From Clostridia bacterium (GTDB lineage Bacteria; Bacillota; Clostridia; Oscillospirales; CAG-272): a stretch of DNA of 54,508 nucleotides. The notes under the pieces were generated by a model that was not told the origin of the DNA, made no database searches, and was given only the letters and a program-made list of their open reading frames with translations. Where the stretch lies: NCBI GenBank assembly GCA_017531765.1, contig JAFXKJ010000037.1, forward strand, positions 1 to 54,508, written 5' to 3'. The translations under genes were made by a program, and so were the position numbers. Shown here one piece after another: positions 4,132 to 54,508 of this stretch (position 1 is its first letter; every line of letters starts with the position of its first letter).

Positions 4132-4214
4132 ATATTGTAATTGAAACAGGAATGATTCCCGCAAACCGATAGAGAATGTGCATTGCCCAATACATGGGCT
4201 CAAAATTTTACGCA

Positions 4215-4259
4215 AAAAAAGACCGAGCTATCCTTTTTTTCGGGAACTCGGTCTTTTTT
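4215..4259 (-). terminator. Terminator of the SPFH/membrane protein operon
   Basis: A perfect 13-bp inverted repeat (4215-4227 and 4247-4259; arm AAAAAAGACCGAG) gives a GACCGAG/CTCGGTC stem flanked by an A-run and a T-run. It sits 34 bp beyond the stop of the minus-strand gene at 4293. Confidence 0.8.
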
Positions 4260-4292
4260 GAATTCAGTGGATTACAAAAGCTTGGTAAGCTC

Positions 4293-4970
4293 TCATTTTT
4301 TGGTCAGACGGCACAGTCTGTTGCGCTCGGAAAGCTTTGCCGCAACTATACCGCACATCTGCTTGAGTGCTTCCGCATTTCCCTGTTCGTAGGCTGTCTG
4401 AAGCTGACTTACCGCAACTGCAAGCTCGGTTTCGCTGTCGGAAATGCGCTCAGAGCTTACGGGATCGGAATAACGGAATTCCTCGGCTAACTTTTTAAGG
4501 TCGCTGTCACCGCTGAGATTTGCAAGGCTCTCCACCTTGGACTGAAGTGATCTCATAAGCGTGGTGTCACGGATCACCTTTTCGTCCTGAGCCAGGATTT
4601 CACGGGCAGTCGCCTCTGTGGCGATAAGACCGATCAATGCAAGACACAGTCCCACAGCATATACCACAAAGGGTATCCACCAGATGATAAGCTCACCCAG
4701 TGCCATGATCACAAGGGAAACGACAAACTGTACAATAGCGTAGATCGCACCGATCTTTGCCACGGGTAAGCCGAAAAATCTGCTCTTGGCATCGGCATTC
4801 TTAAAGAAAGCTATGTACATTGATACTCCGGCCACAACAAAAGCCGTCAGGGTGAATGCGTAGCTGAGCCAAAATACTGTTGAATGTTCAAACGGAATTA
4901 CAAACGCGATGATATTGTAAAGGATAAATGTTAATAATCCGATTACAAAGGCGCGCATATTGCTTTTCAT
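4293..4970 (-). CDS. Four-helix membrane protein of unknown function, partner of the SPFH protein
   Basis: 225 residues. Four hydrophobic segments lie at about 8-26, 32-54, 66-90 and 95-117. A soluble, charged, helical C-terminal region (about 120-225) follows. I do not recognise a named family. AAGGAG precedes the ATG at 4970. It lies 34 bp downstream of the SPFH/zinc-ribbon gene in the same direction, shares its terminator, and is very likely co-transcribed with it from the promoter at 7008-7036. A membrane anchor or partner for the SPFH protein is a reasonable inference. The C-terminal region could form short coiled coils. Confidence 0.7.
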   Translation of the reverse strand: MKSNMRAFVIGLLTFILYNIIAFVIPFEHSTVFWLSYAFTLTAFVVAGVSMYIAFFKNADAKSRFFGLPVAKIGAIYAIVQFVVSLVIMALGELIIWWIPFVVYAVGLCLALIGLIATEATAREILAQDEKVIRDTTLMRSLQSKVESLANLSGDSDLKKLAEEFRYSDPVSSERISDSETELAVAVSQLQTAYEQGNAEALKQMCGIVAAKLSERNRLCRLTKK

Positions 4971-5004
4971 TTGTTGTACTCCTTTCTGTTGAGAGAATGG
5001 TAAA

Positions 5005-6942
5005 TCAAGCGTCCTTTTTACGTCCGCAGTTGGGGCAGAAGTTAGTCTTTATGTCCTTCTGTCCGCAGTCGGGGCAGATCCATCCGTTGTCCGAAGAGGG
5101 CTTCTTGGCACCGCAGTTAGGGCAGAAGTTGCTCGTGATATTCTGCGCTCCGCAAGCGCAGTTCCAGCCTGACGCTTCCTCGGGCTTTTTCGCGCCGCAG
5201 TTAGGGCAGAAGTTGCTTGTGATGTTCTGCGCTCCGCAGGCGCAGTTCCAGCCCGTTTTCGGCTCGGGCTTCTTGGCGCCGCAGTTGGGACAGAAATTGG
5301 TGGTCACGTTCTGCGCTCCGCAAGCACAGCTCCAGCCTGCGGCAGGTGTCGCGGCAGGATTCATCATGGGAGTCATCGCATCCTTGGTCATGTTCATCAC
5401 GCCGCCCATAGCGCCGAGAGTAACGCCGAGACTTGCAATATCTCCAAGCATTCCGACTCCCGCACCGCCGCCGTTTGAACCCATTTGACCAAGGGCGTTG
5501 GCATACGCCTTTTGTACGTCAGTTTGCATTACGTCTCTCTGAGAATAGCCCTTCATGCGCATTTCTTCCGCTTCGATCTGCGCCGTTTGAGCCTTACGCT
5601 CCATTTCAAGCTGCATATGGAGTCTTTCCGCCTGAACGTCTCCCGTAGCCTCGGCAACCTTCACCTGACTTGCATACTGAGCCTCAAGCACACTGGTCTC
5701 GCCCTTCTGTGCCACAGCCTTTCTGTGAGCCATCTCCACCTCGGCGACGTTTTCCTGAATTCGGATGTCAAGCTGCTTTTTCGCCTCCATTTCGGCAAGC
5801 TTAAGCTCTGTTTCAACCTCGATGGCGGATTTTTTAAGATCCTTCTGACGCATCTGCAGAATGGTCTGCAAAGCGTCATAGCCAAGCTCACCCTTCTGAG
5901 GGAGCATGATTCCCATTACAAGGAATTCGGTGATTACAAGACCGTAGTCATCGAAGCTGTTCTGCAAAGCAGTAAGCATTGCCGCGGAAAGACGCATTTT
6001 CTGCTGATCGATGGTGAGAAGGTCGATCTTTTCCTCGGTGATGATATTGGCAAGGTTTGTGGATACCGTGAGCTGAATGAGACTGCGGAAGTAATTCTTT
6101 ATATGTCCTTCGCCGTCCTCGATGAGGTCCTGCCTTGTAAGCTTTCCACCTGTTCCCACAAGCTTCAACAGTAGCTTACGGGAGTTGGAGATACGGAAAT
6201 TCAGCATACCGCGTGCACCGATGGAAATGGGCGCGCCGCTTGAGGGCTCGATGAAGTTTACCTTCTCCGAGGTTCCCCATTTGACAGCCATCTGATTTGT
6301 AAGGTTGAAGAAGTAGACCTCACTGTGGAAGACTCCGTCGGGGTATGCGGAAAGATTGTAGAGCTTCTCAAGGATGGGAAGCTGTTTAGTTTCAAGGGTG
6401 TGCTGACCGCCGGTGAAGGTATCAAGTGCCTGACCGTCGCGGAAGAAGATGGCTTCCTGAGACTCGTGGACGATAAGCTGAGATCCGAGATTAAAGTCCT
6501 CGATGGGATGCTTCCAAACCAGGGTATCGGCATCGCCCTCGTACTTGATAACGGAAGCAAGACCGCTTTTTTTGATCTCTTCCTTCTTTATCTGCTCAAC
6601 TACATTGTTTTCGTGATCGCAGACGGGACATTTATATGTTACGGCACTCTTTGACGCATTCAAACGGACCCCGCACTGAGCGCAGGCGAATTCCGCCATT
6701 TTTCCTCTGTCTGCCGCGGTGTTTATAAGCTCACCGCAAACGGGACACTTGGCGCTTTCACCTCGGCTCTGGTCGAACACAACGTCGTTGCCGCAGTGGG
6801 CGCAAACGCGGTTTGTGAGCTTTTCCGTACGGACGTCAATGGTGTAGCCGCAGGCACAGTCGATCTTCTTTCTTGCAAAGAAGCCCGTTTTGGCTTCTGC
6901 ATACCGTCCGCATTTCGGACATTCAATTACAAATTTTGACAT
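5005..6942 (-). CDS. SPFH-domain protein with N- and C-terminal zinc ribbons (virion-core-like/YdjI-type)
   Basis: 645 residues. The N-terminal 115 residues hold three zinc-ribbon-like CxxC pairs (CPKC...CAC; CAHC...CPVC; CAQC...CPVC). An SPFH/band-7-like domain follows (about 140-350), then a charged, probably coiled-coil helix rich in Glu, Ala and Lys (about 355-460), a Gly-rich hydrophobic linker (about 470-525), and four tandem CxC...CPNC ribbons (about 535-645). This layout matches the family often annotated SPFH domain/YdjI or virion core protein. SPFH proteins form membrane-associated oligomeric scaffolds, and the ribbons probably mediate zinc-dependent contacts. The ATG at 6942 follows GGGAG. 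A strong minus-strand promoter lies at 7008-7036. Precise function is unknown. Confidence 0.85.
   Translation of the reverse strand: MSKFVIECPKCGRYAEAKTGFFARKKIDCACGYTIDVRTEKLTNRVCAHCGNDVVFDQSRGESAKCPVCGELINTAADRGKMAEFACAQCGVRLNASKSAVTYKCPVCDHENNVVEQIKKEEIKKSGLASVIKYEGDADTLVWKHPIEDFNLGSQLIVHESQEAIFFRDGQALDTFTGGQHTLETKQLPILEKLYNLSAYPDGVFHSEVYFFNLTNQMAVKWGTSEKVNFIEPSSGAPISIGARGMLNFRISNSRKLLLKLVGTGGKLTRQDLIEDGEGHIKNYFRSLIQLTVSTNLANIITEEKIDLLTIDQQKMRLSAAMLTALQNSFDDYGLVITEFLVMGIMLPQKGELGYDALQTILQMRQKDLKKSAIEVETELKLAEMEAKKQLDIRIQENVAEVEMAHRKAVAQKGETSVLEAQYASQVKVAEATGDVQAERLHMQLEMERKAQTAQIEAEEMRMKGYSQRDVMQTDVQKAYANALGQMGSNGGGAGVGMLGDIASLGVTLGAMGGVMNMTKDAMTPMMNPAATPAAGWSCACGAQNVTTNFCPNCGAKKPEPKTGWNCACGAQNITSNFCPNCGAKKPEEASGWNCACGAQNITSNFCPNCGAKKPSSDNGWICPDCGQKDIKTNFCPNCGRKKDA
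5008..5337 (-). repeat. Coding tandem repeat: four zinc ribbons of 28 residues
   Basis: Three 84-bp units (5254-5337, 5170-5253, 5086-5169) and a diverged 78-bp terminal unit (5008-5085) each encode GW-x-CxC-GAQN...NFCPNCG-x-KK. The middle two are nearly identical at protein level, which suggests recent duplication. On the plus strand this creates a misleading open frame; the minus-strand frame is the real one. Confidence 0.9.
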
Positions 6943-10214: not shown

Positions 10215-10287
10215 GCTCCAAAGAGTGCCGTATTTCAGCCAACCGATTATTAAATATCAACAATAAAACCGAAAGGAAATATACAAA

Positions 10288-11049
10288 ATGAACAAGTATC
10301 TTGAAAATGCAGAGCTCCGTGATTTCTACGGCTACAAGTATTATGTATTTGAATTTAAGGGTCACACAGCGCACGTGATCCTTCCCCATGAGCAGAAGAA
10401 AAACTACTGGATGTGGAGAGCCGAGTTCCTTGACTGCGGCTTTGACTGGGTAGACATGGATATGCTGAAGAGAGGCTATGCCCTCACGTACTACAGCATC
10501 TGCGATATGTACGGCTGTCCCGAGGCAGTTGAACTTATGGACGGCTTCTACCGCCTCATGACCGAGGAGTTCGGCTTTGCCGAGAAGACCATATTCTTCG
10601 GATTCAGCCGCGGAGGTCTTTATTCCGCAAACTTTGCTCTCAAGTACCCCGAAAGATGTGCGGCTCTCTACCTTGACGCTCCCGTTCTTGACATCAAGAG
10701 CTGGCCCGGCGGTCTCGGCACGGGTCTCGGCGCAGAGAGAGAATGGGCTGAGTGCCTTGAGTGGTACCGCCTCGACCGCAGTACCGTTCTCGCATGGCGC
10801 GGCAATCCTGCGGAGCGTGCAGACGAGCTTGCCGCTTTTGGCGTTCCTGCGGCGATCGTTGTAGGCGACTCCGACCGTGACGTTCCCCACAGAGAAAATG
10901 CAGAGCTTATGGTTGCCGCATACGAAAAGGCGGGCGCACCCCTTCTTTACATCGTAAAGCCCGGATGCGACCACCATCCCCACAGCATCGAGGATCCCAC
11001 TCCCGTTTCAGAGTTTCTTGAGAAATGGGCAGAGGCGCTCAACGGCTGA
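10288..11049 (+). CDS. Alpha/beta hydrolase
   Basis: 253 residues with the serine-hydrolase fold. The nucleophile elbow is GFSRGG (Ser near residue 108), a strand-turn GVPAAIVVGDSDRDVP probably carries the acid residue, and the catalytic His is probably in GCDHHPHS near the C-terminus. There is no signal peptide, so it acts in the cytoplasm, probably as an esterase or peptidase-like enzyme. The substrate cannot be told from sequence. AAAGGA precedes the ATG. It is 73 bp after ygiQ and 29 bp before the HAD phosphatase gene. Confidence 0.8.
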   Translation: MNKYLENAELRDFYGYKYYVFEFKGHTAHVILPHEQKKNYWMWRAEFLDCGFDWVDMDMLKRGYALTYYSICDMYGCPEAVELMDGFYRLMTEEFGFAEKTIFFGFSRGGLYSANFALKYPERCAALYLDAPVLDIKSWPGGLGTGLGAEREWAECLEWYRLDRSTVLAWRGNPAERADELAAFGVPAAIVVGDSDRDVPHRENAELMVAAYEKAGAPLLYIVKPGCDHHPHSIEDPTPVSEFLEKWAEALNG

Positions 11050-11078
11050 AAACATAAAATAAAAAGGAGAAGTGGAAA

Positions 11079-11900
11079 ATGGACACCTCTCGCTTAAATG
11101 ATATAAAACTGTTTCTCTTTGACATGGACGGGACATTGTGGCTTGGCAGCAGGCTCTATCCCTTCACAAAGGAGCTGCTCCGTACCATCAGAGAGGCGGG
11201 AAAAAGGTATCTTTTTATCACCAATAACTCGTCAAGATCCACCGCCGATTATGTAAAAAAGCTCGCTTCCTTCGGAATTGAAGCAACGGGAGAGGATTTT
11301 ATGACCTCTGCCGAGGCTACGGCGTACTATCTTACGAAAGAATTGCCCGAGGTACGCTTTTACGTCTGCGGAACAGCGTCCCTTAAGGCGGAATTTTCCC
11401 GTCAGGGCATAAAAATGACCGATAACGTTGAAGACTCTGAGGGAGTGGTGTTGGGATTTGACACGGAGCTTGATTTTAAGAAGCTTCACGATGTTTCGCG
11501 AATCCTTTGCACACGGGATGTGCCCTACTATGCCACAAATCCCGACCTCGTCTGCCCCACGGAATTCGGAAGCGTGCCCGACTGCGGAAGCGTGTCGGGA
11601 ATGCTTCGCAACGTGTCGGGGAAAATGCCCATCTTTATCGGCAAGCCGTCGCCTCTAATGATAGAGCTTGCCATGGAAAAGTGCGGTGTGTCTCCTCTTG
11701 AGACTGCGGTCATCGGCGACCGAATTTACACCGACGTGAAAAGCGGACTTAACGCGGGAGCTCTTGCAGTTCTCGTGATGTCGGGGGAGACCACGGAGGA
11801 GATACTCCGCGAGTCTCCGGACAAGCCTGACCTTGTCCTTGAGGATGCGGGACTGTTGATAGACCGCATAAAAAGTGATATTCCTCTTGAAGTGGAGTGA
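11079..11900 (+). CDS. HAD-IIA family sugar/nucleotide phosphatase (NagD-like)
   Basis: 273 residues. Motif I is LFDMDGTLW with the nucleophilic Asp, motif II is ITNNSS, the Lys is in IGKPSP, and motif III is VIGDRIYTDVKSGLNAG. The residues between motifs II and III form the C2-type cap seen in NagD and p-nitrophenylphosphatase-like enzymes. It is predicted to be a cytoplasmic Mg-dependent phosphatase for small phosphorylated metabolites. GGAG precedes the ATG at 11079. It ends 4 bp before metF, so the two are probably co-translated. Confidence 0.88.
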   Translation: MDTSRLNDIKLFLFDMDGTLWLGSRLYPFTKELLRTIREAGKRYLFITNNSSRSTADYVKKLASFGIEATGEDFMTSAEATAYYLTKELPEVRFYVCGTASLKAEFSRQGIKMTDNVEDSEGVVLGFDTELDFKKLHDVSRILCTRDVPYYATNPDLVCPTEFGSVPDCGSVSGMLRNVSGKMPIFIGKPSPLMIELAMEKCGVSPLETAVIGDRIYTDVKSGLNAGALAVLVMSGETTEEILRESPDKPDLVLEDAGLLIDRIKSDIPLEVE

Positions 11901-11904
11901 AGTT

Positions 11905-12792
11905 ATGAAAATTATAGAAATCTTAAACACAAAATATCCCAAGCTGTCCTTTGAGGTGTTCCCTCCAAAAACGGACACAGCTTTTGAGAACGTGAAAAGT
12001 GCCGCGGAGGAGATAGCCCGTCTGTCCCCCTCCTTTATGAGCGTGACCTACGGCGCGGGGGGAGGCACCAGCCGATATACTCTTGAGCTTTGCCGAGATA
12101 TTGAGGCGGACGTGGGAGTGCCGACACTCGCCCACCTCACCTGCGTTTCCTCGACGAGAGATACTGTTGCACGTCAGATAGAGCTGATGCGTGAGGCGGG
12201 GATCGTGAATGTTATGGCGCTGAGAGGGGATCTCACTCCCGAGCTTGCCGCATCAAACAGAGAAGACTGGCACTACCGTCACGCCACCGATCTTGTCCGT
12301 GAGCTGAAGGAAGCCGACCCTGATTTCTGCATCGGCGGAGCCTGCTACCCCGAGGTGCATCCCGAAAGCGCCACGAGCCGTGAGGACATCCGCTATATCA
12401 AGGAAAAGGTTGAGGCGGGATGCGATTTCCTTACCACTCAGATGTTCTTTGACAATAATCTCTTCTACAATTTCCTTTATAAGCTCCGCGAGGCGGGGGT
12501 CACCGTTCCCGTTGTGGCGGGAATCATGCCCATCACCGCGGCAAATCAGGTGGAGCGCGCCATCAAGCTGTCAGGATCATTCATGCCGCAGAGATTCAAG
12601 AGCCTTGTGGACCGATTCGGCTCAAATCCCGAGGCGATGAAGCAGGCGGGCATCGCTTACGCCACCGATCAGATCATCGACCTTTACGCCAACGGGATCA
12701 CAAACGTCCACGTTTATTCAATGAACAAGCCTGACGTGGCTCGCAAGATCCGCGACAATCTCTCGGAGATTCTGAAAACTCCGGAGGTGTGA
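11905..12792 (+). CDS. metF: Methylenetetrahydrofolate reductase
   Basis: 295 residues, the same length as bacterial MetF. It reduces 5,10-methylene-THF to 5-methyl-THF, the methyl donor for methionine synthesis, using FAD. Diagnostic stretches are LSFEVFPPKTD at the N-terminus, MSVTYGAGGG, NVMALRGD and FLTTQMFFDN, with the TIM-barrel folate/FAD pocket covering the whole protein. The ATG at 11905 follows GGAG; an upstream in-frame ATG at 11875 overlaps the HAD gene and adds a non-family leader. The next gene, starting one base after the stop, encodes a MetH-reactivation domain, which ties both to cobalamin-dependent methionine synthesis. Confidence 0.95.
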   Translation: MKIIEILNTKYPKLSFEVFPPKTDTAFENVKSAAEEIARLSPSFMSVTYGAGGGTSRYTLELCRDIEADVGVPTLAHLTCVSSTRDTVARQIELMREAGIVNVMALRGDLTPELAASNREDWHYRHATDLVRELKEADPDFCIGGACYPEVHPESATSREDIRYIKEKVEAGCDFLTTQMFFDNNLFYNFLYKLREAGVTVPVVAGIMPITAANQVERAIKLSGSFMPQRFKSLVDRFGSNPEAMKQAGIAYATDQIIDLYANGITNVHVYSMNKPDVARKIRDNLSEILKTPEV

Positions 12793-12793
12793 G

Positions 12794-13396
12794 GTGGTAC
12801 GGCATTTCAGCTTTAACGCCGCGGAGCTTCCCTTCCGAGTGAAGGAGGCTCTGAGATATTCGGGCTCTCCCGCCACGGAGGAGTTTGTACGCTACATGGG
12901 CTCGTGCCGTGATGAGCTTGTGCCGGCGGCAACCCCTGCGGTGTGCTGTCGGATCTTGCCTGTAATTCACATTGACGGAGGGGTAAACATCGGCGGAAAA
13001 GTATTGCGGAGTCGGGATCTCGCGAAGAATCTCCGGGGATGTGACAGTGTTCTCATTATGGCTGCAACTCTCGGTGTGGGAGTTGACAGAGTGATCCTTG
13101 CCGCATCCCGCATGGTGCCGTCAAAGGCTGTACTTCTTCAGGGAGTTGCCGCAGAGATGATAGAATCCCTGTGCGACAAGGCGGAGACATCGCTTCTCTG
13201 CGGACGGAGATCCCGTCCCCGTTTCAGTCCCGGATATGGGGACCTGACTCTTGATGCACAGAGGATGATCTTTGGTTTTTTAAGTCCCGAAAAGTACATC
13301 GGGCTGACTCTGAACACGTCGCTCATGCTCTCTCCCGCGAAATCGGTGACGGCATTTGTGGGGATAGTGAAAGAAGGAGGGGAAAACAATGGCTGA
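12794..13396 (+). CDS. Free-standing methionine synthase activation domain
   Basis: 200 residues matching the AdoMet-binding reactivation domain that forms the C-terminus of full-length MetH. The core reads RFSPGYGDLTL followed by Q-x3-F, and KSVTAFVGIV near the end. In MetH this domain remethylates inactive cob(II)alamin using S-adenosylmethionine. Here it is a separate polypeptide, as in many Clostridia whose MetH lacks the domain. The GTG start at 12794 lies one base after the metF stop, with GGAGGTG five bases upstream. No metH is present in the window, so the partner must be elsewhere. Confidence 0.88.
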   Translation: MVRHFSFNAAELPFRVKEALRYSGSPATEEFVRYMGSCRDELVPAATPAVCCRILPVIHIDGGVNIGGKVLRSRDLAKNLRGCDSVLIMAATLGVGVDRVILAASRMVPSKAVLLQGVAAEMIESLCDKAETSLLCGRRSRPRFSPGYGDLTLDAQRMIFGFLSPEKYIGLTLNTSLMLSPAKSVTAFVGIVKEGGENNG

Positions 13397-14171
13397 CAGA
13401 GTATTTTCAAGGCTCTATCGCATTTTCGGAGCCTTTGTTTTTGTGTCCTTCGCATCATATTTCTTGAAGCTTGTAATTTCATCGGAAGGAACGCTTCCTT
13501 GGGTAGCCACCACCACCGTTATGGCGGCGGTGGCTTTTCCGTATGTTTTCAGGAGAAAGCTTCGTGAGATACTGAAAAAAGCATACCTGCCATTGAAGGG
13601 CGTTTGGGTATGCGGTATGATATTTTACACCGTGACGTGGATGTGCCTTGTCGGTTATATCTACCTTGCGCCGTCACGCGTGCCTGACGGTGGCTTGGAT
13701 GGAAACGTATATATAGTTTTCGGTGCGAAGGTGAACTCTGACGGTCCCACAAAAACTCTCGCCGCGCGGCTGGAGTGTGTGGCGGAGCTGCTTCGTGATG
13801 ACTCCGAGGGTATAGTTATAGTCAGCGGCGGCAAGGGTCCCGACGAGCCGACAACGGAAGCCGAGTGTATGAGAGATTATCTTATATCACTGGGAGTTTC
13901 CCCCGAGCGTATCATTATGGAGAGGGAGGCGCACAACACGAGGGAGAATATCGAATATTCCGTGAAGCTGATAGACAAGGCGGGGCTTTCAGACAGAAAT
14001 ATCGTATGTGTCTCGTCGGACACTCACATACCGCGGATCAAGCTTATGTGCGAGAGGGCGGGAGTTGACGCATATTATGTAAAAAGTGAAACGCCCGAGA
14101 AGGTGTATCTCTTTACCACGTGGGTGAGAGAGTATCTTTCGTACGTTAAGATGCTGGTCATGGGAGGATGA
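13389..14171 (+). CDS. YdcF/SanA-type DUF218 membrane protein
   Basis: 260 residues. Three hydrophobic segments (about 9-28, 36-50 and 70-92) anchor an approximately 165-residue DUF218 domain. Its hallmark stretches are VFGAKVNSDGPTKTLAARL, VIVSGGKG, TEAECMRDYLISLGV and ERIIMEREAHNTREN. DUF218 proteins such as SanA and YdcF are linked to envelope maintenance, but their chemistry is not settled. The start overlaps the preceding gene by 8 bp with GGAGGGG upstream. It is the last gene of the six-gene run; the noncoding mosaic begins just after the stop. Confidence 0.82.
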   Translation: MADRVFSRLYRIFGAFVFVSFASYFLKLVISSEGTLPWVATTTVMAAVAFPYVFRRKLREILKKAYLPLKGVWVCGMIFYTVTWMCLVGYIYLAPSRVPDGGLDGNVYIVFGAKVNSDGPTKTLAARLECVAELLRDDSEGIVIVSGGKGPDEPTTEAECMRDYLISLGVSPERIIMEREAHNTRENIEYSVKLIDKAGLSDRNIVCVSSDTHIPRIKLMCERAGVDAYYVKSETPEKVYLFTTWVREYLSYVKMLVMGG

Positions 14172-14221
14172 ATGCCCTTGTGCCAAGGGCAATGCAAAAT
14201 GCAAAACGCAAAATTGGTTGG

Positions 14222-14905
14222 ATAGACGTGGACGTGGCGGTTGGTTATAGGACGGACATGGGGTTTATAGACCAACGAAGCGGGCGGTCACATAGGATTT
14301 GCCCTCCCTACAAAAACACCGAGGTTTTAACGCAGGACGACAGCCATATCGTGTGGTCTATACGGCAACGAGACGGGACGCCACATGGGGTTTTACTCCG
14401 CACCACGGTGCTACGTAAAATTTTCCTTAAAGAAAACGTCCCCTACAGGATAGTTGGAGACGGGGCGGTATGTTATCGGTCAGACGTGCGGTTTATAAGC
14501 AAAACGTACTGCCCGTGTCATTCTGAGCCTGCGAAGAATCTTGTTCTAACGATGATAAACCAAACGTATGTTTTATAAGCAAAACGCAACCTTTTTCTAA
14601 CATTTCTTTTGTTGCCGAAGGCAACAAAAAAGAAATGGGTAGCCAAGGAATTGAGGAACGAAGTGACGAAGAAACTTCGGCGTTTGAGATGGTTCTTAAC
14701 ATGGGTGATAGCCATAACGTGCGGTTTGTAAACCAACGAAGCGGGACGCCACATGGGGTTTTACTCCGCACCACGGTGCTACGTAAAATTTTCCTTAAAG
14801 AAAACTTTCCCTACAGGTTGGTGGAGACGGTGCGGTAGGTTGTAGGTCGGACGTGTGGGTTGTAAGCCAACGAGGCGGGACGCCACCACCTGTTTGCGAA
14901 GCAAA
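14222..14905. repeat. Noncoding mosaic repeat, copy B
   Basis: No gene is supported between 14172 and 15027. Units related to GATAGCCATAWCGTGC...GCCAACGAAGCGGGA lie at 14253-14284, 14339-14378, 14479-14509, 14707-14746 and 14846-14880. A hairpin with the core GTTGCCGAAGGCAAC spans 14601-14642. From 14562 to 14746 the order of blocks matches copy A at 45-240. Open frames here are short, overlap on both strands and lack ribosome binding sites. Beyond 14905 the sequence is plain and AT-rich up to a terminator. Confidence 0.75.
14374..14805. repeat. 64-bp perfect direct repeat inside mosaic copy B
   Basis: Positions 14374-14437 and 14742-14805 are identical over 64 bp. Both copies contain the near-palindrome TTTTCCTTAAAGAAAA, and both are followed by a similar CCCTACAGG tail. 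Identity with no coding frame to preserve suggests recent duplication within the element. Confidence 0.9.
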
Positions 14906-14976
14906 CGGAGTCGCCACATTTTAGTTTTTTCGGAATTTTATCATTAAATTCCCCGTTAATGACTCCTTCTCATTAT

Positions 14977-15018
14977 AAAAAATCTACCGATTCAATTTTC
15001 TGAATCGGTAGATTTTTT
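14977..15018 (-). terminator. Terminator of the soj-spo0J-deacetylase cluster
   Basis: A perfect 18-bp inverted repeat (14977-14994 and 15001-15018) with a 6-nt loop, flanked by an A-run and a T-run. It sits 10 bp beyond the stop of the minus-strand gene at 15028. Confidence 0.88.
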
Positions 15019-15027
15019 TATTTTAAC

Positions 15028-16083
15028 TTACTCATCAATATTACGTATCTCATAGCCTTCAGATCTTACGTAATCAATAAAATCCCCAAGTACAAGTGCA
15101 TTTGTCTCGCCTACGGTGTGAAGCATCAGTACACTTCCGTTGTGAAGTCCCGATTTCATCTTGGCAAGCGCCTCCTCGGGGGAGAGCTGATCGTTCGGAT
15201 CGTAATCGTAGTACGCCCATGAATAAAGTACGTTTACAAGATCCATTTCACGGTACATCGCCATGTCCCAAGGGGAGCATGAGCCGTATGACGGTCGGAA
15301 ATACTTCATATAAGGCGCACCGGGCACCGCCTCCCGGAGAAGCTCGTTGTTTGACTCTATCTCGTAAAAGAATTCCTCAAGCGACAGACGGGACATTACC
15401 TTGTGATTGTTACCGTGATTGCCCACGATGTGCCCCTCGTCGATCATACGGCGGACAAGCTGGGGCGCTTCCTTTATAAACGCTCCGTTGAGGAAAAAGG
15501 ATGCCTTAACACCCTTCTCACGCAGTACGTCAAGCACTTCGTCGGTGTAGCCGTTTTCATCCTCATAACCGCAGTCGAAGGTGATGTAGATAACCTTTTC
15601 ATCCTCGTTTTTGCGGTAGATGGAGCCGTATTCCTCCAGCGCCTCGAAAACGTCGGGCGCTCTGTCATATTTCACCGTTACCTTGCCCGTCACCTCGTCG
15701 CGGACAGTGACTCCGCAGTACCACGAGCCGTTCGTCTTATCTGACGTGTCGGAGAAAAAATCTCGTCCGAGACTGTCGAACTTGGAAAAGTCCGTCAGTA
15801 CCTTGCCCGTGTGGGTGATATAGGTGAGGTTTCCTTCAGCCTCGCTTCCCGAGTATGAGGCGTAGCCGCCATGTTCGATAGGGGGAGTGCCTTCCCCCGA
15901 TGTAGGCGTGCTGTCCGTGCCCTCGGGGATTCCCATAACGCTCTCGGTATCCGTTACCTCGTCTCTGCCCATACCGATGGTAGCATTCTCGGAGGAGGTA
16001 CAGGCACAAAGCTGTGACACTGCAAGGACGAGCGCGACGGACAAAGCTGAAATTTTCTTTTTCAATCGGGTATTCATAATCAT
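15028..16083 (-). CDS. PdaA-like polysaccharide deacetylase lipoprotein (downstream paralogue)
   Basis: 351 residues from the ATG at 16083, which overlaps the upstream stop as ATGA; the ATG at 16077 is an equally possible start. A hydrophobic leader ends in a lipobox-like LCAC, then a Gly/Thr/Ser/Glu linker, then a NodB fold (about 165-351). The fold matches the B. subtilis muramic-lactam deacetylase PdaA: YITFDCGYE in motif 1, EGHIVGNHGNNH as the zinc HxxxH motif, RPSYG in motif 3 and VLMLHT near the end. It is predicted to act on peptidoglycan at the outer membrane face. Motif 1 has Cys where PdaA has Asn and canonical NodB enzymes have Asp. Confidence 0.85.
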   Translation of the reverse strand: MIMNTRLKKKISALSVALVLAVSQLCACTSSENATIGMGRDEVTDTESVMGIPEGTDSTPTSGEGTPPIEHGGYASYSGSEAEGNLTYITHTGKVLTDFSKFDSLGRDFFSDTSDKTNGSWYCGVTVRDEVTGKVTVKYDRAPDVFEALEEYGSIYRKNEDEKVIYITFDCGYEDENGYTDEVLDVLREKGVKASFFLNGAFIKEAPQLVRRMIDEGHIVGNHGNNHKVMSRLSLEEFFYEIESNNELLREAVPGAPYMKYFRPSYGSCSPWDMAMYREMDLVNVLYSWAYYDYDPNDQLSPEEALAKMKSGLHNGSVLMLHTVGETNALVLGDFIDYVRSEGYEIRNIDE

Positions 16084-48266: not shown

Positions 48267-49163
48267 ATGGGAACTATATTTAACATACAGAAGTTTTGTA
48301 TTCACGACGGAGACGGAATCCGCACCAACGTATTTCTGAAGGGCTGTCCTCTCAGATGTATCTGGTGTCACAATCCCGAGGGACTTGACAGAGAGAAAAA
48401 CATTTCTTTCTTTGCCGAGAGGTGTACGGGCTGTGGAAGGTGCCTTGAAAAGTGTCCGGGACGTACCATTGACGGAGAGGGAAAATTACATATTGACAGA
48501 AGCAAGTGTACTCTTTGCGGTTCTTGCGTTGAGGCGTGCCTTAACAAGGTAAACGAAATAATGGGTTACGAGGCTACCGCGGAGGAAGTGTTTGCCGACG
48601 TAATGAAGGATAAGATGTTCTACGACACCACGGGCGGCGGAATGACGGTCTCCGGCGGCGAGCCCTCATATCAGGCGGAGTTTGCAATGACTCTTCTCAG
48701 AATGGGCAAGGATGCGGGTATCGGTATTGCCCTTGAAAGCTGCGGTATCGGAAAGAGAGAATTTTATGCCGAGGCGGCTGATCTCGGTACCACATTCCTT
48801 TATGACCTGAAATGCATGGACAGCTATAAGCACAAGGCTCTGACGGGAGTGTCAAACGATCACATTATAGACAACCTTCTTTACCTCTTTGAGAGAGGCG
48901 CGGATGTGCGCATCCGTATGCCCATGATCCCCGGCTGTAACGACAGCGATGAGGACATCGCAAATCTCTGTTCATTCCTTAAGGAGCACGAGGGTAAGTA
49001 CAAGTATGCTGAGATCATGCCCTACCACACTCTCGGTGTGGGCAAGTCCGACCATCTGGGTCGTGAGGTTGCATTCCGTGCAGAGAATGCGACTGACGCA
49101 GATATTGCGCGCTGGGTGGCTCTCTTCGAGCGTGGAGGAATAAAGGTAAGGGTTTCAAAGTAA
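48267..49163 (+). CDS. Glycyl radical enzyme activating protein (radical SAM)
   Basis: 298 residues. The radical SAM cluster motif is C27-x3-C31-x2-C34 within GCPLRCIWCHNPEG. A two-cluster ferredoxin-like insert follows (CTGCGRCLEKCP and CTLCGSCVEAC, about 53-95). The SAM-binding GGE motif is in MTVSGGEPS. It uses S-adenosylmethionine to abstract a hydrogen from the glycine of its partner enzyme, installing the glycyl radical; this needs anaerobic conditions and an electron donor. Length and the insert match activases of the glycerol dehydratase/choline lyase type more than PFL-activase (about 245 residues, no insert). AAGGAGG precedes the ATG. It heads the cluster and is the only activase present. 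Confidence 0.94.
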   Translation: MGTIFNIQKFCIHDGDGIRTNVFLKGCPLRCIWCHNPEGLDREKNISFFAERCTGCGRCLEKCPGRTIDGEGKLHIDRSKCTLCGSCVEACLNKVNEIMGYEATAEEVFADVMKDKMFYDTTGGGMTVSGGEPSYQAEFAMTLLRMGKDAGIGIALESCGIGKREFYAEAADLGTTFLYDLKCMDSYKHKALTGVSNDHIIDNLLYLFERGADVRIRMPMIPGCNDSDEDIANLCSFLKEHEGKYKYAEIMPYHTLGVGKSDHLGREVAFRAENATDADIARWVALFERGGIKVRVSK

Positions 49164-49194
49164 ATAATTGAAGATCATGTAAGGGGTGATACAT

Positions 49195-51360
49195 ATGACC
49201 GATGTAATGAAGATCGACCCTCTGTCCCGAGGCTTTTTCGCCGACGAATCTCTTGAGATCGCCGAGAGAGTGGGAATGGCGCTCCTTGAATGCGCAAAAT
49301 ATATTGACATAGATTTCGACAGGAATATCCTGCCCCATTTCGATACGTCGAAGAATACGGGAGCAAGATTTACATTCGACGACAGCATCAGTTATCAGCA
49401 TCACAGATTTGAGGAATTTTTGGAGAAATATCCGGAGCATCGTGAGCTGCTTGAGAGCTATAAGGCGAAGTTCGAGCTTTACGATGACTCAAGACGGAAT
49501 CTCAGAAGTACCGTTGGCGAGACTCACGGAGACTCGGGCACTGAGTGGGGCGGCTCCTTCGGCGGTCACGCAAACCCCGATTTCGGCAGAGTAGTAAATC
49601 TCGGTACTGACGGTATCCGTGAGATAATAAGAGACTGCAGTACCAAGGGAATACCCGATTCCGACTGGTTTTACAGAGGATGTCTTCTCACCCTTGATGC
49701 AATAGATACCCTCGGCGACAGATACGGTGCTCTTGCAAGACTTCGCGCCGAGGAAGCGTCTGATGAGAAAACAAGATCACAGTACATAGCGGCGGCAAAG
49801 GCTTTTGAGACCGTGCCCCGCCGTCCCGCGCCCGACTTTACCTCAGCGGTGCTTTGCTTCTGGCTTGTTTTCTCCTTCGACGGAGTGGACTCCCCCGGAA
49901 GATTTGATCAGTATATGCTCCGCGCGTGGGAGGCAGACTGTGACGAGGGGGCAAAGCGTGATGCTCTTGAGAGACTGTGGGAGGCTTTCCACGACACAAG
50001 AACATGGAATCTCTGTGTTTCCGGCTCGGACGAGACTTGGCGGGACGAGTCAAACGAGTTGACCTATGAAATTTTGAAGATCGCCCGTGAGAAGAAGTAT
50101 GAGACCCCGAACCTCACGGTGCGTGTGCACAGAAATACTCCCGAGAAGCTTTGGGATGCCATTACGGACACCCTTGCATCGGGAATCGGTATGCCCGCCA
50201 TCTACAACGACGAGGCGGTGTGCGCGTCTCTTGAAAAGCTTGGAATTCCCCCATGCGACAGCCACGACTACTGCATGAACGGCTGTAACCAGATCGACAT
50301 CATGGGTAAGAGCCACATGGGTCTTGAGGACGGCGAGGTAGTTCTTGCAAAATGCGTGGAGCTTGCCCTTCACAACGGATATAACAGCATAAAGCCCCGG
50401 CTTTACACCATCAAAACGGGAGATCTGCGCCATGCCGAAAGCTACACCGAGGTTGAACGGGCGGTGATCCGTCAGATGGAGTATCTCACTTACATCGCCA
50501 CAAACAGCGCAAACAGCGCGCAGCAGGTGAGAGCTCAGTACGGTCCAAATCCCCTGAGATCATGTCTGACGGAGGGCTGCCTCGAAAAGGGACGTGACTA
50601 CAGAAACGGCGGTCCGCTGTATAATCACGGGCAGATCCTTGCGGAGGGCATTGCCGACGCGGGTGACAGCCTTTATGCAATAAAAAAACTGGTGTTTGAT
50701 GAGAAAAAATACACCATGGCACAGCTTATCGATGCACTTGAAGCGGATTTTGAAGGATACGGTGAGCTTAACCGCGATTTCAAGAACTGTGAGAAATTCG
50801 GAAACGGAATAGCCGAGGTTGACGTGTTCACCACGGGACTTCTCAACCGATTCTTCAAGTTGCTGAAGCGAATCCACACCTACCGCGGCGGCGTGTACAC
50901 AGGGGGATGCAGTCCCGATGACAGAGCCACGTATTACGCAGGCTACATCGGAGCACTGCCCAACGGAAAAAGACGGGGCGAGCCAATGCTTGCCGATTCC
51001 ATCGCGGCGGTGCCGGGATGTGACGTCAGCGGTCCCACCTCTCAGATCCGTTCCGTTCTCGGCTACGACCACAGTGAGGCGGGAAGCGGATTTATATTCC
51101 AAAACAAATTTGATAAAAAGATGTTCTGCTCCGAAAAGGGCAAGGAAAGCTTCAAGGGGCTTGTGAAGACCTACTTTGCGGCGGGCGGTCAGCAGTTTAC
51201 CGCCACCGTTGTGAATCCCGAGGATCTTCTTGATGCCCTGGAGCATCCCGAACGCCACCGTGACCTGATCGTCCGTGTGGGCGGCTTCAGCGGATATTTC
51301 ACAGAGCTTGGCGCGGACATACAGCAAAGCGTTATAAAGCGTACCTTTAAGGAGCTTTGA
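49195..51360 (+). CDS. Glycyl radical enzyme 1 of unassigned subfamily
   Basis: 721 residues; the ATG at 49195 follows AAGGGGTG at proper spacing. The ten-stranded barrel fold of pyruvate formate-lyase-like enzymes is indicated by SPGRFDQYM, GIGMPAIYND, GDSLYAIKKLVFDEKKYT and GALPNGKRRGEPMLADS. The radical glycine is Gly697 in RVGGFSGYF. The thiyl loop reads DYCMNGCNQ, with Cys364 the expected radical Cys and a second Cys at 360. Where characterised dehydratases and lyases read G-C-V-E-P with a Glu base, this has Asn-Gln. The substrate is unknown. It is 31 bp downstream of the activase and 36 bp before paralogue 2. Confidence 0.9.
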   Translation: MTDVMKIDPLSRGFFADESLEIAERVGMALLECAKYIDIDFDRNILPHFDTSKNTGARFTFDDSISYQHHRFEEFLEKYPEHRELLESYKAKFELYDDSRRNLRSTVGETHGDSGTEWGGSFGGHANPDFGRVVNLGTDGIREIIRDCSTKGIPDSDWFYRGCLLTLDAIDTLGDRYGALARLRAEEASDEKTRSQYIAAAKAFETVPRRPAPDFTSAVLCFWLVFSFDGVDSPGRFDQYMLRAWEADCDEGAKRDALERLWEAFHDTRTWNLCVSGSDETWRDESNELTYEILKIAREKKYETPNLTVRVHRNTPEKLWDAITDTLASGIGMPAIYNDEAVCASLEKLGIPPCDSHDYCMNGCNQIDIMGKSHMGLEDGEVVLAKCVELALHNGYNSIKPRLYTIKTGDLRHAESYTEVERAVIRQMEYLTYIATNSANSAQQVRAQYGPNPLRSCLTEGCLEKGRDYRNGGPLYNHGQILAEGIADAGDSLYAIKKLVFDEKKYTMAQLIDALEADFEGYGELNRDFKNCEKFGNGIAEVDVFTTGLLNRFFKLLKRIHTYRGGVYTGGCSPDDRATYYAGYIGALPNGKRRGEPMLADSIAAVPGCDVSGPTSQIRSVLGYDHSEAGSGFIFQNKFDKKMFCSEKGKESFKGLVKTYFAAGGQQFTATVVNPEDLLDALEHPERHRDLIVRVGGFSGYFTELGADIQQSVIKRTFKEL

Positions 51361-51396
51361 AGCTATACTGCCCCCTAACTGATTGGAGGTATGAAT

Positions 51397-53559
51397 ATGA
51401 AAATTGACGTTAGCATTGACCCTATGCTCAGCGGCTTTTTTGACGACGAATCTCTTGAGCTCGGTGAGCGTCTCGGTATGGCTCTCGCCCTCTGCGGAAA
51501 ATACGGAGATATAGGGTTTGATAAATACCATCTGCCCCGTTGCGGCTTTGGCACCATGCTGGTTCACTCCCATCACGGCAATAATCTCGGAATAGAAAAC
51601 AGAGGCTTCAAAAGAGCAATTGCCGCACATCCCGAGCACGAGGAGCTGTTTCTCCAGATGGAGCGCAAGCTTGACACTCTCTTGCTTTCACGAACCGTGT
51701 TTGCTGACAAAAGGATGAAGACCCTTGAGAACGCCATGGCTATGTGGGGCGGAAACGGAAACGGACACGTGAATCCCGACTACGGAAGGATCGTAAACCT
51801 CGGCACCGACGGTATTCGCGAGATCATCGAAGAGTCTAAGCGGAAAAATAACCCCGACTCCGACTGGTTTTTGAGAGGATGCTCTTACGCTCTCGATGCC
51901 CTTGATGCCTTCGGTGAGAGGTACTGCGCCCTCGCCAAGGAAAAGGCGGCGACAGAGACCGATCCGAAAGTGAAAAAATACTACGAGGATGCCGCGCACG
52001 CCTTTGAGGTGGTGCCGAAAAAGCCCGCTTACGACTTTACCTCAGCTGTACACGCCTTTTGGCTTGTGTTCACCGCCGACGGAACGGACTCTCCCGGACG
52101 GTTTGATCAGTATATGTACAGAGCATGGGAGATAACGGAGGATAAAGACGGAGCAAGGGAGATCCTGGAGAGGCTGTGGGACGCGTTCCACGACACGAGA
52201 ACGTGGAACCTGTGCCTTTCGGGAAGTGATGCGGAGTGGTGTGATCAGACAAATGAGCTGACATATGAGATACTTCGTCTTGCAAGAGAAAAGAAGTATA
52301 ACGCGCCCAACATTACACTGCGCGTTCACCGCAACACTCCCGAGGAGCTTTGGGATGCCATCACCGATACTCTCGCATCGGGTATCGGTATGCCTGCTCT
52401 TTATAACGACGAGACAGTTTGCACCGCCCTTGAAAAGCTGGGTATTCCCCCATGCCACAGTCACGACTACTGCATGAACGGATGCAATCAGATCGACATT
52501 TTCGGCAAGAGCCACATGGGTCTTGAGGACGGTGAAGTAAACTTCGCCAAGTGCCTTGAATACGCCCTCTACAATGGAGTAAATCCCATGAACGGCGAAG
52601 AAGAGAGCATCCCCACGGGAGATATGCGTCTTGCCGAAACCTACGAAGAGGTGGAAAGAGCCTTCATCACTCAGCTTGACTATATGTGCTACACGGCGTG
52701 CGCCATGGCAAATAACGGTCAGATATCCCGTGCCGTTTACGGACAGAATCCCTTTACTTCATGTCTCATTGAAGGATGCCTTGAGAAGGGACGGGATTTC
52801 AAGGCGGGCGGAGCGCTTTACAATCACGGTCAGATCCTCTCCGAGGGTGCTCCCGACACGGGCGACAGCCTTTGGGCGATAAAAAAGCTGATCTTTGATG
52901 AGAAAAAATATACAATGAGTGAGCTTTTAGATGCCATGGACGCAAACTTTGAAGGGTACGACGAGCTTTACCGCGATTTCAAGAACTGCGACAAGTTCGG
53001 CAACGACCATGACGGAGTTGATAAGGTTACCTCCCGTATCATGAACCGCTTCCTCACCGTGCTGAAGCGTTACAACACCTACCGCGGGGGCGTTTATACA
53101 GGCGGTTGCAGTACGTACGAGCGTGCGGCTCAGAACGGTCGTGCCGTGGCGGCGCTTCCAAACGGAAAGAAGCGTGGAGAATCCCTCCTTGCGGATTCAA
53201 TTGCCGCAGTTCCCGGCTGCGACGTGAACGGTCCCACTGCGTGCATGAAATCCACTCTTAACTACAATCACACTGATGCGGGAAGCGGATTTGTTTTCCA
53301 GATCAAGTTTGACAAAAAGGTCTTCAACACAGAAAAAGGCAAGGAAAGCTTCAAAGGACTTGCAAAGGCGTATTTTGCAGGCGGCGCTCAGCAGTTGACC
53401 GTTACGGTGGTAAGTCCCGAGGATCTGCTGGCGGCACAAAAAGACCCCGACAGGTATCGGGATCTTATAGTCAGAGTTGGCGGATACAGCGACTATTTCG
53501 TTGATCTCGGAAAAGGCTTGCAGGAAAATATAATAGCACGCACATTTGCGGAGCTTTGA
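51397..53559 (+). CDS. Glycyl radical enzyme 2 of unassigned subfamily
   Basis: 720 residues from the ATG at 51397; the ATG at 51391 abuts GGAGGT and is too close. It is highly similar to the preceding enzyme along its length: SPGRFDQYM, GIGMPALYND, HDYCMNGCNQIDIFGKSHMG, and the glycyl site RVGGYSDYF with Gly696. The predicted thiyl Cys is Cys363, again followed by Asn-Gln. The N-terminal 120 residues differ most from paralogue 1 (for example GFGTMLVHSHHGNNLG), suggesting a different substrate entry or partner surface. Activation presumably relies on the same upstream activase. The third paralogue starts 34 bp later. Confidence 0.9.
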   Translation: MKIDVSIDPMLSGFFDDESLELGERLGMALALCGKYGDIGFDKYHLPRCGFGTMLVHSHHGNNLGIENRGFKRAIAAHPEHEELFLQMERKLDTLLLSRTVFADKRMKTLENAMAMWGGNGNGHVNPDYGRIVNLGTDGIREIIEESKRKNNPDSDWFLRGCSYALDALDAFGERYCALAKEKAATETDPKVKKYYEDAAHAFEVVPKKPAYDFTSAVHAFWLVFTADGTDSPGRFDQYMYRAWEITEDKDGAREILERLWDAFHDTRTWNLCLSGSDAEWCDQTNELTYEILRLAREKKYNAPNITLRVHRNTPEELWDAITDTLASGIGMPALYNDETVCTALEKLGIPPCHSHDYCMNGCNQIDIFGKSHMGLEDGEVNFAKCLEYALYNGVNPMNGEEESIPTGDMRLAETYEEVERAFITQLDYMCYTACAMANNGQISRAVYGQNPFTSCLIEGCLEKGRDFKAGGALYNHGQILSEGAPDTGDSLWAIKKLIFDEKKYTMSELLDAMDANFEGYDELYRDFKNCDKFGNDHDGVDKVTSRIMNRFLTVLKRYNTYRGGVYTGGCSTYERAAQNGRAVAALPNGKKRGESLLADSIAAVPGCDVNGPTACMKSTLNYNHTDAGSGFVFQIKFDKKVFNTEKGKESFKGLAKAYFAGGAQQLTVTVVSPEDLLAAQKDPDRYRDLIVRVGGYSDYFVDLGKGLQENIIARTFAEL

Positions 53560-53592
53560 TATAATCAACATCATTTTGAAAGGATACATATT

Positions 53593-54508
53593 ATGGAAAA
53601 TCTTATTAAACTCGATCCTCTGCTTTACGGATATTTCAAGGATGAGAGCCTTGAGATCAGCGAAAGAATCGCTATGGGACTGGTTGAATGCGCACGTCTC
53701 GGTGAGATCAGCTTTGACAGAAACTATCTCCCTCATTTCCACTTTGATTGCGAAATGTCCAATTTCAGCTATTCCGACAGCCTTTGCTATAAATACGGTT
53801 CAGCCCCCGATCTTGTGAAGGAGATGCCCGAATACGAAGAGCAGATCATGAGCTGGAGAGCGAAGATAGATCCTCTTATGAGAACAAGAGGCTACTTCTG
53901 CGATGTAAGACAGGCAACTCTTTCAGACGCAATGGCAATGTGGGGCGGCGGCTGGGGTGGTCACTCCAACCCCGACTTCGGAAGAATCGTAAACCTCGGT
54001 ACCGACGGTGTTCGTGAGATCATTGCAAAGTGCAAGACTCTCGGCAACCCCGATTCCGACTGGTTCTACCGCGGATGCGACCTTGCAATGGATGCTCTTG
54101 ACATTCTCGGTGAGAGATTCTGCGCTCTTGCTCGTGAAAAGGCTGCGGCTGCGACCGATCCTGTGGCAAAGAAGTGCTATGAGGACGCAGCTCGCGCGTT
54201 TGAAGTAGTACCGAAGAAGCCTGCTTACGACTTCACATCTGCTGTTTACGCCTTCTGGCTCACTTTCGTTACCGACGGTATCGACTCTCCCGGACGCTTT
54301 GACCAGTACATGTGGAGAGCTTGGGAGATGACTGAAGACAAGGATGCGGCAAGAGAAGCTCTTGACAGACTTTGGGAGACGTTCCATGACACAAGAACAT
54401 GGAACCTCTGCCTTGCGGGAAGTGACGAGAACTGGAACGACGAGGCTAACGAGCTGACATACGAGATCCTTCGTATTGCACGCGAGAAGAAATTCCAGAC
54501 TCCCAATA
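53593..54508 (+). CDS. Glycyl radical enzyme 3, N-terminal part (runs off the window)
   Basis: The frame stays open from the ATG at 53593 to the last base, giving 305 codons and no stop. GAAAGG lies 14 bases upstream. The protein begins MENLIKLDPLLYGYFKDESLE and matches paralogues 1 and 2 throughout: MWGGGWGGHSNPDFGRIVNLG, DSDWFYRGCDLAMDALDILGER, SPGRFDQYMW and HDTRTWNLCLAGSDE. The thiyl and glycyl sites lie beyond the window. Its codon choice (more GCT, CTT and GGT) differs from the GC-richer paralogues, as in highly expressed genes; this is an impression and was not counted. Confidence 0.88.
   Translation, partial: MENLIKLDPLLYGYFKDESLEISERIAMGLVECARLGEISFDRNYLPHFHFDCEMSNFSYSDSLCYKYGSAPDLVKEMPEYEEQIMSWRAKIDPLMRTRGYFCDVRQATLSDAMAMWGGGWGGHSNPDFGRIVNLGTDGVREIIAKCKTLGNPDSDWFYRGCDLAMDALDILGERFCALAREKAAAATDPVAKKCYEDAARAFEVVPKKPAYDFTSAVYAFWLTFVTDGIDSPGRFDQYMWRAWEMTEDKDAAREALDRLWETFHDTRTWNLCLAGSDENWNDEANELTYEILRIAREKKFQTPN

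Follow-up and report, generated by a model that had tools for sequence, protein, structure and literature searches.

What chemistry can be expected of a glycyl radical enzyme (GRE) in which the catalytic Glu of its known relatives has been replaced by Gln? The question is raised by the end of a 54,508-nucleotide stretch of DNA from a Clostridia bacterium (Oscillospirales, CAG-272; assembly GCA_017531765.1, contig JAFXKJ010000037.1, positions 1 to 54,508), referred to here as the window, where one activase gene is followed by three GRE genes. The Glu of the Cys-X-Glu (CXE) motif is regarded as a defining mark of GRE eliminases; in the known members it deprotonates or holds the substrate hydroxyl. 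In the first two enzymes of the window, GRE-A and GRE-B, and across their clade, Cys-X-Glu is absent and the thiyl loop reads Cys-Asn-Gln (CNQ); the lineage with this loop is named CNQ-GRE in this report. Because the catalytic Glu of known relatives is replaced, an undescribed function is possible, and the CNQ-GREs may do something not yet described.

The activase, the two complete GREs and the partial third form a real glycyl radical enzyme operon, with all genes on the forward strand. The activase (48267..49163, 298 aa) is a radical-SAM GRE activase with a ferredoxin-type 4Fe-4S part, recognised by PF04055 and Fer4 models; it passes TIGR02494 (314 bits, cut-off 174), and its top equivalog is the HypD activase, whose cut-off it does not reach (322 versus 425 bits). 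GRE-A (49195..51360, with an alternative GTG start possible at 49186) is complete and matches PF02901 with 329.8 bits and PF01228 with 73.9 bits. Its thiyl loop DYCMNGCNQ lies at 50266..50292 and its glycyl radical motif VRVGGFSGYF at 51271..51300. GRE-B (51391..53559), whose residue numbering is used throughout, is also complete and matches PF02901. Its loop DYCMNGCNQ (52465..52491) contains Cys365, Asn366 and Gln367 and is followed by GKSHMGLEDGE (52504..52536), which holds Glu379 at C+14; its glycyl radical motif VRVGGYSDYF (53470..53499) was read directly, without a PF01228 scan. Both complete copies thus carry the canonical RVxG[FY] motif, and Cys365 aligns with the Cys of the GCVE loop in glycerol dehydratase. 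GRE-C (53593..54508, PF02901 71.9 bits) is cut by the contig end after its first 305 aa; its loop falls beyond the window, and the collinear copy on another contig of the assembly, C3, reads CMNGCNQ. Spacing between genes is 30-33 bases, with a purine-rich stretch before every GRE start. GRE-A and GRE-B share 61% identity; the visible part of GRE-C shares 56% with A and 60% with B. The coordinates and motifs confirm the first-pass annotation, which had described an activase followed by three consecutive paralogous GREs with DYCMNGCNQ in both visible loops.

The family extends well beyond this operon. When species genomes were scanned with GRE-B, the loop itself being one of six patterns used, 201 relatives were returned and 79 loci were kept; 53 of these came from a stated ruminant gut compartment and one from horse faeces, the remaining 25 having no gut compartment stated. 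A second search was made with a 40-row profile (A1) and no motif filter, with at most five candidates scored per genome. Across the 197 genomes searched within the order, full-length members scored at least 917 bits and one fragment 763, while the next protein scored 481; among 194 genomes of the phylum of a member from Lentisphaeria, two proteins exceeded 1000 bits, one being that member, and the next reached 446. Of the distinct frames that scored over 700 bits and whose loci had been found by profile or Pfam and not by the motif pattern, all 30 contain GCNQ; some of these frames are the same loci as in the GRE-B pattern scan. Of the 97 family rows, 94 encode the Gln at +2 as CAG and 3 as CAA. 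The ratio of nonsynonymous to synonymous substitution rates (dN/dS) was 0.036-0.163 in 28 of 29 close pairs, the remaining pair being saturated; for GRE-A and GRE-B against their copies on C3 it was 0.061 and 0.064. The uniform codons and the low dN/dS make sequencing error or decay unlikely, and the CNQ-GREs are under purifying selection.

Outside the lineage, the position two residues after the thiyl Cys is different. Glu occupies it in 63 of the 74 non-CNQ rows of the alignment, Ser in 5, Asp and Trp in 2 each, and Gln and Gly in 1 each; the five Ser rows are those of pyruvate formate-lyase (PFL) type, and the 74 include one duplicated PflB row. A GRE with the loop GCSQ (L147:873-3104) is a separate natural case of Gln at the CXE position; of 295 genomes of the order, two have matches to it at an E-value of 1e-120, one of them its own, which is too few to use. 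A second Cys, four residues before the thiyl Cys, had been put forward in the first-pass annotation as another pointer to new chemistry. This proposal failed as a catalytic feature: the same Cys is found in CutC and diol dehydratase relatives (YC..GCVEP), and it is replaced by Val or Ala in three divergent CNQ members that keep GCNQ.

For the phylogenetic placement, reference enzymes were named through NCBIfam cut-offs, a 1233-bit match to PDB 5i2a, or E. coli annotation. In a first FastTree tree of 171 aligned GRE rows, all 97 CNQ rows formed one clade with a support of 0.834 and no other motif inside. A refined tree, built from 89 sequences, gave it 1.0; of the CNQ rows it contained 23, and of the 74 others 66, after eight near-duplicates had been dropped. 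In this tree the CNQ clade joins three CTE/CSQ proteins (0.79) and then a lineage with the loop GCQE together with one CGE protein (0.975); diol dehydratase, CutC, HypD, YbiW, PflD and PflB all fall outside the CNQ, CTE/CSQ and GCQE groups. An interim IQ-TREE tree, without supports, gave the same nearest placement. The CNQ-GCQE junction received a support of only 0.034 in the first tree, so the sister group of the CNQ clade is uncertain. Identity of CNQ-GREs to diol dehydratase (PD), CutC, HypD, YbiW and PflD is about 26-28%, and 18.7% to PflB.

Other families, namely IslA, HpsG/HpfG, HplG, glycerol dehydratase and the decarboxylases, stand outside the trees and were compared by scores. With the window GREs, all NCBIfam GRE models stayed below their cut-offs (PFL2-3 gave 320/678 bits for GRE-A). 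CutC (TIGR04394, cut-off 1050) gave 299 bits for GRE-A and 308 for GRE-B, and HypD (NF043068, cut-off 1100) gave 288 and 314. The models NF048011, NF048009, NF033718 and NF033715, which represent (2S)-3-sulfopropanediol dehydratases and the indoleacetate and 4-hydroxyphenylacetate decarboxylases, gave 131-304 bits for A and B against cut-offs of 1000-1150. Pyruvate formate-lyase (TIGR01255, cut-off 994) gave only 68 bits for A and 75 for B, and the window enzymes have Gly-Cys instead of the adjacent Cys-Cys. When the family profile was compared with solved structures, glycerol dehydratase scored 458 bits, diol dehydratase 448, 9rco 441, HypD 432 and CutC at most 425. Lower scores were obtained for HplG (386), 5ymr (340; presumably an IslA), 6lon (338; which we take to be an HpfG), the isethionate lyase 7kq3 (332) and the hydroxyphenylacetate decarboxylases (332 and 207). 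Among solved families none stands out. That the CNQ-GREs are a divergent branch of one of the characterised families outside the trees (IslA, HpsG/HpfG, HplG, or the arylacetate decarboxylases) is extremely improbable: although these were compared by scores alone, their solved members all score below the 458 bits of glycerol dehydratase, and the sulfopropanediol dehydratase and arylacetate decarboxylase models stay far under their cut-offs. In the literature, no GRE with Gln at the CXE Glu site was recognised among the matches listed, which is weak evidence as most subscription papers lie outside them. The separate clade, the unreached NCBIfam cut-offs and the lack of an outstanding solved family support the view that the CNQ-GREs are a separate uncharacterised lineage, the undescribed subfamily that the first-pass annotation had considered possible.

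The exchanged Gln is one of a group of residues that distinguish the lineage. Ten residues, Arg270, Trp272, Asn363, Asn366, Gln367, His375, Glu379, Asp380, Ser574 and Arg578, are fixed at 0.99-1.00 in CNQ-GREs and occur in no more than 21% of the 33 other CXE enzymes compared; when up to 35% is allowed in the other enzymes, Gln481 and Glu485 are among the residues that qualify. The beta1 His126 is present in 97 of 97 CNQ rows and is common in other rows too. Glycerol/propanediol dehydratase (PDB 1r8w, 5i2a) shares the GRE architecture, the thiyl Cys, the glycyl motif and the beta1 His with the CNQ-GREs. When aligned by eye with glycerol dehydratase, CNQ-GREs have Cys365 at its radical Cys, Gln367 in place of the Glu of the CVE loop, Glu379 in place of Asp447, and no counterpart of the His281 position. 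They are also about 65-120 residues shorter than glycerol/propanediol dehydratase, with about 28% identity to the PD relative.

HypD likewise shares the GRE architecture and the beta1 His (His160 in HypD); at about 26% identity, CNQ-GREs differ in having Gln for Glu436 and Arg270 for an Asp, which is Asp339 by our placement. Arg578 would lie two residues past the HypD Thr645 site on the same strand. Both Arg residues were placed from the alignment, in which identity is about 26%, with the help of primer sequences given in the HypD paper (PMC7077986). The loss of two acids and the gain of two Arg residues would fit an anionic substrate. In this respect the lineage may be likened to IslA, a GRE in which, according to PMC8473560, an anionic substrate is held through Arg residues; IslA, however, has CXE (Cys468-Ile469-Glu470), where CNQ-GREs have Gln. 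The uncharacterised GCQE lineage, found in the same genomes, also occurs in tandems, has Glu at C+14 and shares the Asp233 and Ser574 positions; Glu379, Asp380 and Ser574 are common to both lineages, and GKSNFGCEDG follows the GCQE loop as the counterpart of the CNQ stretch. In contrast to CNQ, the GCQE enzymes keep Glu at +2 and form a separate clade. The threonyl radical enzymes (AAREs; Fu et al. 2024, PMC11528403) are also noncanonical GRE relatives and are reported to occur generally as two paralogues beside one activase. The AARE change described there is at the radical Gly, whereas in CNQ-GREs this Gly is normal and the change is at the CXE Glu.

Taken together, the reading to which we give the highest probability, at about 0.42, is that CNQ-GREs are catalytically complete GREs of an uncharacterised lineage, served by one activase, with a relocated base and an anionic hydroxylated substrate. 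The activase would generate a glycyl radical on the Gly of the RVxG motif, which is present in the sequences. By analogy with the superfamily, the radical would then move to Cys365, and the resulting thiyl radical would take a hydrogen from the substrate. As the CXE position is fixed as Gln367, it can form hydrogen bonds but cannot act as a base, and from its position Glu379, together with His126, would most likely perform the acid/base work. Arg270 and Arg578, placed by alignment at or near HypD pocket sites, would favour an anionic, hydroxylated substrate; a sugar acid or a sugar phosphate, or more broadly an anionic polyol or sugar, would be candidates.

A different outcome of the same exchange can be envisaged. 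PFL and succinate synthases work without CXE, and by analogy CNQ-GREs might not be eliminases and could catalyse some other radical reaction, such as C-C cleavage, isomerisation, epimerisation, or addition. This is a tentative possibility, consistent with the fixation of Gln at +2 in the CNQ clade and with the distribution in other rows, where Glu predominates (63 of 74) and the five PFL-type rows have Ser. It is also in keeping with Glu-to-Gln mutants of two eliminases: no activity is reported for E470Q of IslA (PMC8473560) or for E436Q of HypD (PMC7077986). The HypD paper reports no activity for H160Q, D278N and D339N either, and reduced glycyl radical in all four variants (12% per monomer in E436Q versus 51%). 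On the other side, the CNQ lineage is placed among Glu-bearing GREs and not with PFL, the beta1 His is retained, and an acid is present at C+14.

The opposite view, that CNQ-GREs are ordinary dehydratases in which Gln is a hydrogen-bond partner, the base is another residue or water, and the exchange is chemically minor, is considered unlikely. His126 and the motif order are indeed as in the diol dehydratase branch, and the top solved relative is glycerol dehydratase at 458 bits; however, no reversion of the Gln is seen in 97 rows, the adjacent residues are class-specific too, and in the sources cited above the same exchange inactivates IslA and HypD. The first-pass annotation had suggested that the Gln points to different chemistry. 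The Glu-to-Gln mutants make the suggestion plausible.

The arrangement of the genes bears on whether the enzymes are catalytic. More than one CNQ gene stands side by side at 12 of 82 loci, and no second CNQ gene was seen at the others; in both groups some loci are cut by contig ends. An activase adjoins 37 of the 82 loci, and 10 of those without one lie near a contig end. In six paralogue pairs, identity was 75-82% in active-site windows compared with 61-74% overall, an excess that is partly built in, as these windows were picked around conserved motifs. The paralogues differ at residues 122-124, beside His126. Tandem copies that share a core and differ beside His126 would probably act on related substrates or pair as heterodimers. 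It is very unlikely that CNQ-GREs are degenerate or regulatory paralogues without catalysis, for example partners of an active GRE: tandem copies served by one activase and the flanked loci without an adjacent activase would agree with such a role, but the catalytic Cys and the glycyl motif are retained, the genes are under purifying selection, and tandems were seen only at the 12 loci mentioned. Fused GRE-GRE proteins, suggested by apparent frames of about 1500 aa without an inner stop in genomes G003, G004 and G008, were rejected; a TAA lies between the GRE genes in the DNA of the G004 locus, and the stop-to-stop frames at all three give separate proteins.

Several observations weigh against the reading of complete enzymes with a relocated base. 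Glu379 is no more than a candidate site for that base. Since the GCQE lineage has both the +2 Glu and the C+14 Glu, Glu379 may serve otherwise. The glycyl radical is lower in HypD E436Q, so that the loss of activity would not be purely one of base function. All residue placements depend on alignment at about 27% identity. At 35 of the 82 loci, at least 700 bases are available on each side and no same-strand activase lies within about 600 bases; activation by a distant activase would need to be common. The gene neighbourhoods do not name the substrate either. Near genes (within 1.5 kb, same strand, at least 150 aa; n = 90) were compared with far genes (beyond 4.5 kb, a random 90 of 162) as raw counts, with 25 families listed per set; near-duplicate loci were excluded, as were L026 and the genome to which the window belongs. 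FAD_oxidored was found in 3/90 near and 4/90 far genes, and GFO/IDH/MocA in 3/90 far genes, the latter not being among the 25 families listed for the near set.

What remains of the context is a weak hint of a carbonyl product. Aldo/keto reductases make up 5/90 near and at most 1/90 far genes; DegT and ceramidase-like proteins occur three times each near and at most once far, and GH28 twice near and at most once far. Two of the near DegT/ceramidase pairs come from related loci. In these, which belong to one sub-clade (L072:4047-6527 and L074:9818-12302), genes for a ceramidase-like protein and for a DegT-type aminotransferase stand downstream of the GRE. Naming the substrate from neighbours (FAD oxidoreductases, GFO/IDH/MocA, SDR, GH4, GH28, GH92, heparinase-like, DegT and ceramidase-like proteins) was rejected, as the near/far control removes most of them. 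Sugar-related types beside several members were GH4, GH28, GH92, heparinase-like proteins and the aldo/keto reductases. No microcompartment shell family was among the 25 listed of 105 Pfam families in the 90 near genes. No RNA element was found at gathering score in the window, and 11 related loci contained only one tRNA and one signal recognition particle (SRP) RNA, with no hint of a riboswitch.

In its boldest form, which we hold as no more than a tentative proposal, CNQ-GREs would be a whole lineage without the CXE base, with a new GRE reaction type that acts on an anionic carbohydrate in the gut of herbivores, and with paralogues tuned to related substrates. The fixation of Gln under purifying selection, in single genes as well as in tandem arrays, forms a natural experiment on the role of the CXE residue. 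The lineage offers a well-defined target in the search for new radical chemistry among gut anaerobes. With its tree, its fixed residues and its activase-linked operons, the CNQ hypothesis can be tested directly.

The window's assembly (2.23 Mb, 74.8% complete, 160 contigs, the window contig being C142) contains a second, collinear triplet on contig C3 (locus L016), whose DNA is 81.3% identical to that of the window over 6252 bases. At the protein level, identity is 93% for the activase, 87% for A, 83% for B and 96% for the visible part of C. The third genes are thus far more alike than the second, which may reflect gene conversion or co-binned relatives. C3 stops at its activase and C142 inside GRE-C, so two loci per genome and co-binned relatives are both possible. 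A single triplet is found at L026, from goat rectum, where the two genes that precede the activase in the window have counterparts upstream of the L026 activase. GRE-A is 69% identical to the first L026 gene and 63-64% to the other two, and by this measure looks like an old orthologue; B and C have no clean cross-species pairing. Three MORN-type proteins (10252-15071; Pfam was run on two of them) follow the triplet at L026, and one MORN-repeat protein (4183-5595) follows it on C3. MORN-type genes as in L026 are likely the content to be expected past the window end. One MORN protein downstream of these triplets carries S-layer homology domains.

A second uncharacterised GRE lineage (Y[ST].LGCQEIEIPGKSNFGCEDG) was observed at L017:6547-13567, on contig C15 of the window's own genome, and at L112:4803-14247, in tandems of three and four. 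Neighbours of the L017 lineage include an FGGY-type kinase (identified by eye), a xylose-isomerase-like barrel, a ThuA protein and a GFO/IDH/MocA oxidoreductase. PFL-like genes are numerous in small gut genomes: in the window's own genome (G000), 17 places match PF02901, fragments among them, and two genomes from the phylum of the Lentisphaeria member, G412 and G484, have 30 and 28 first-look PFL-like candidates, of which five each were scored.

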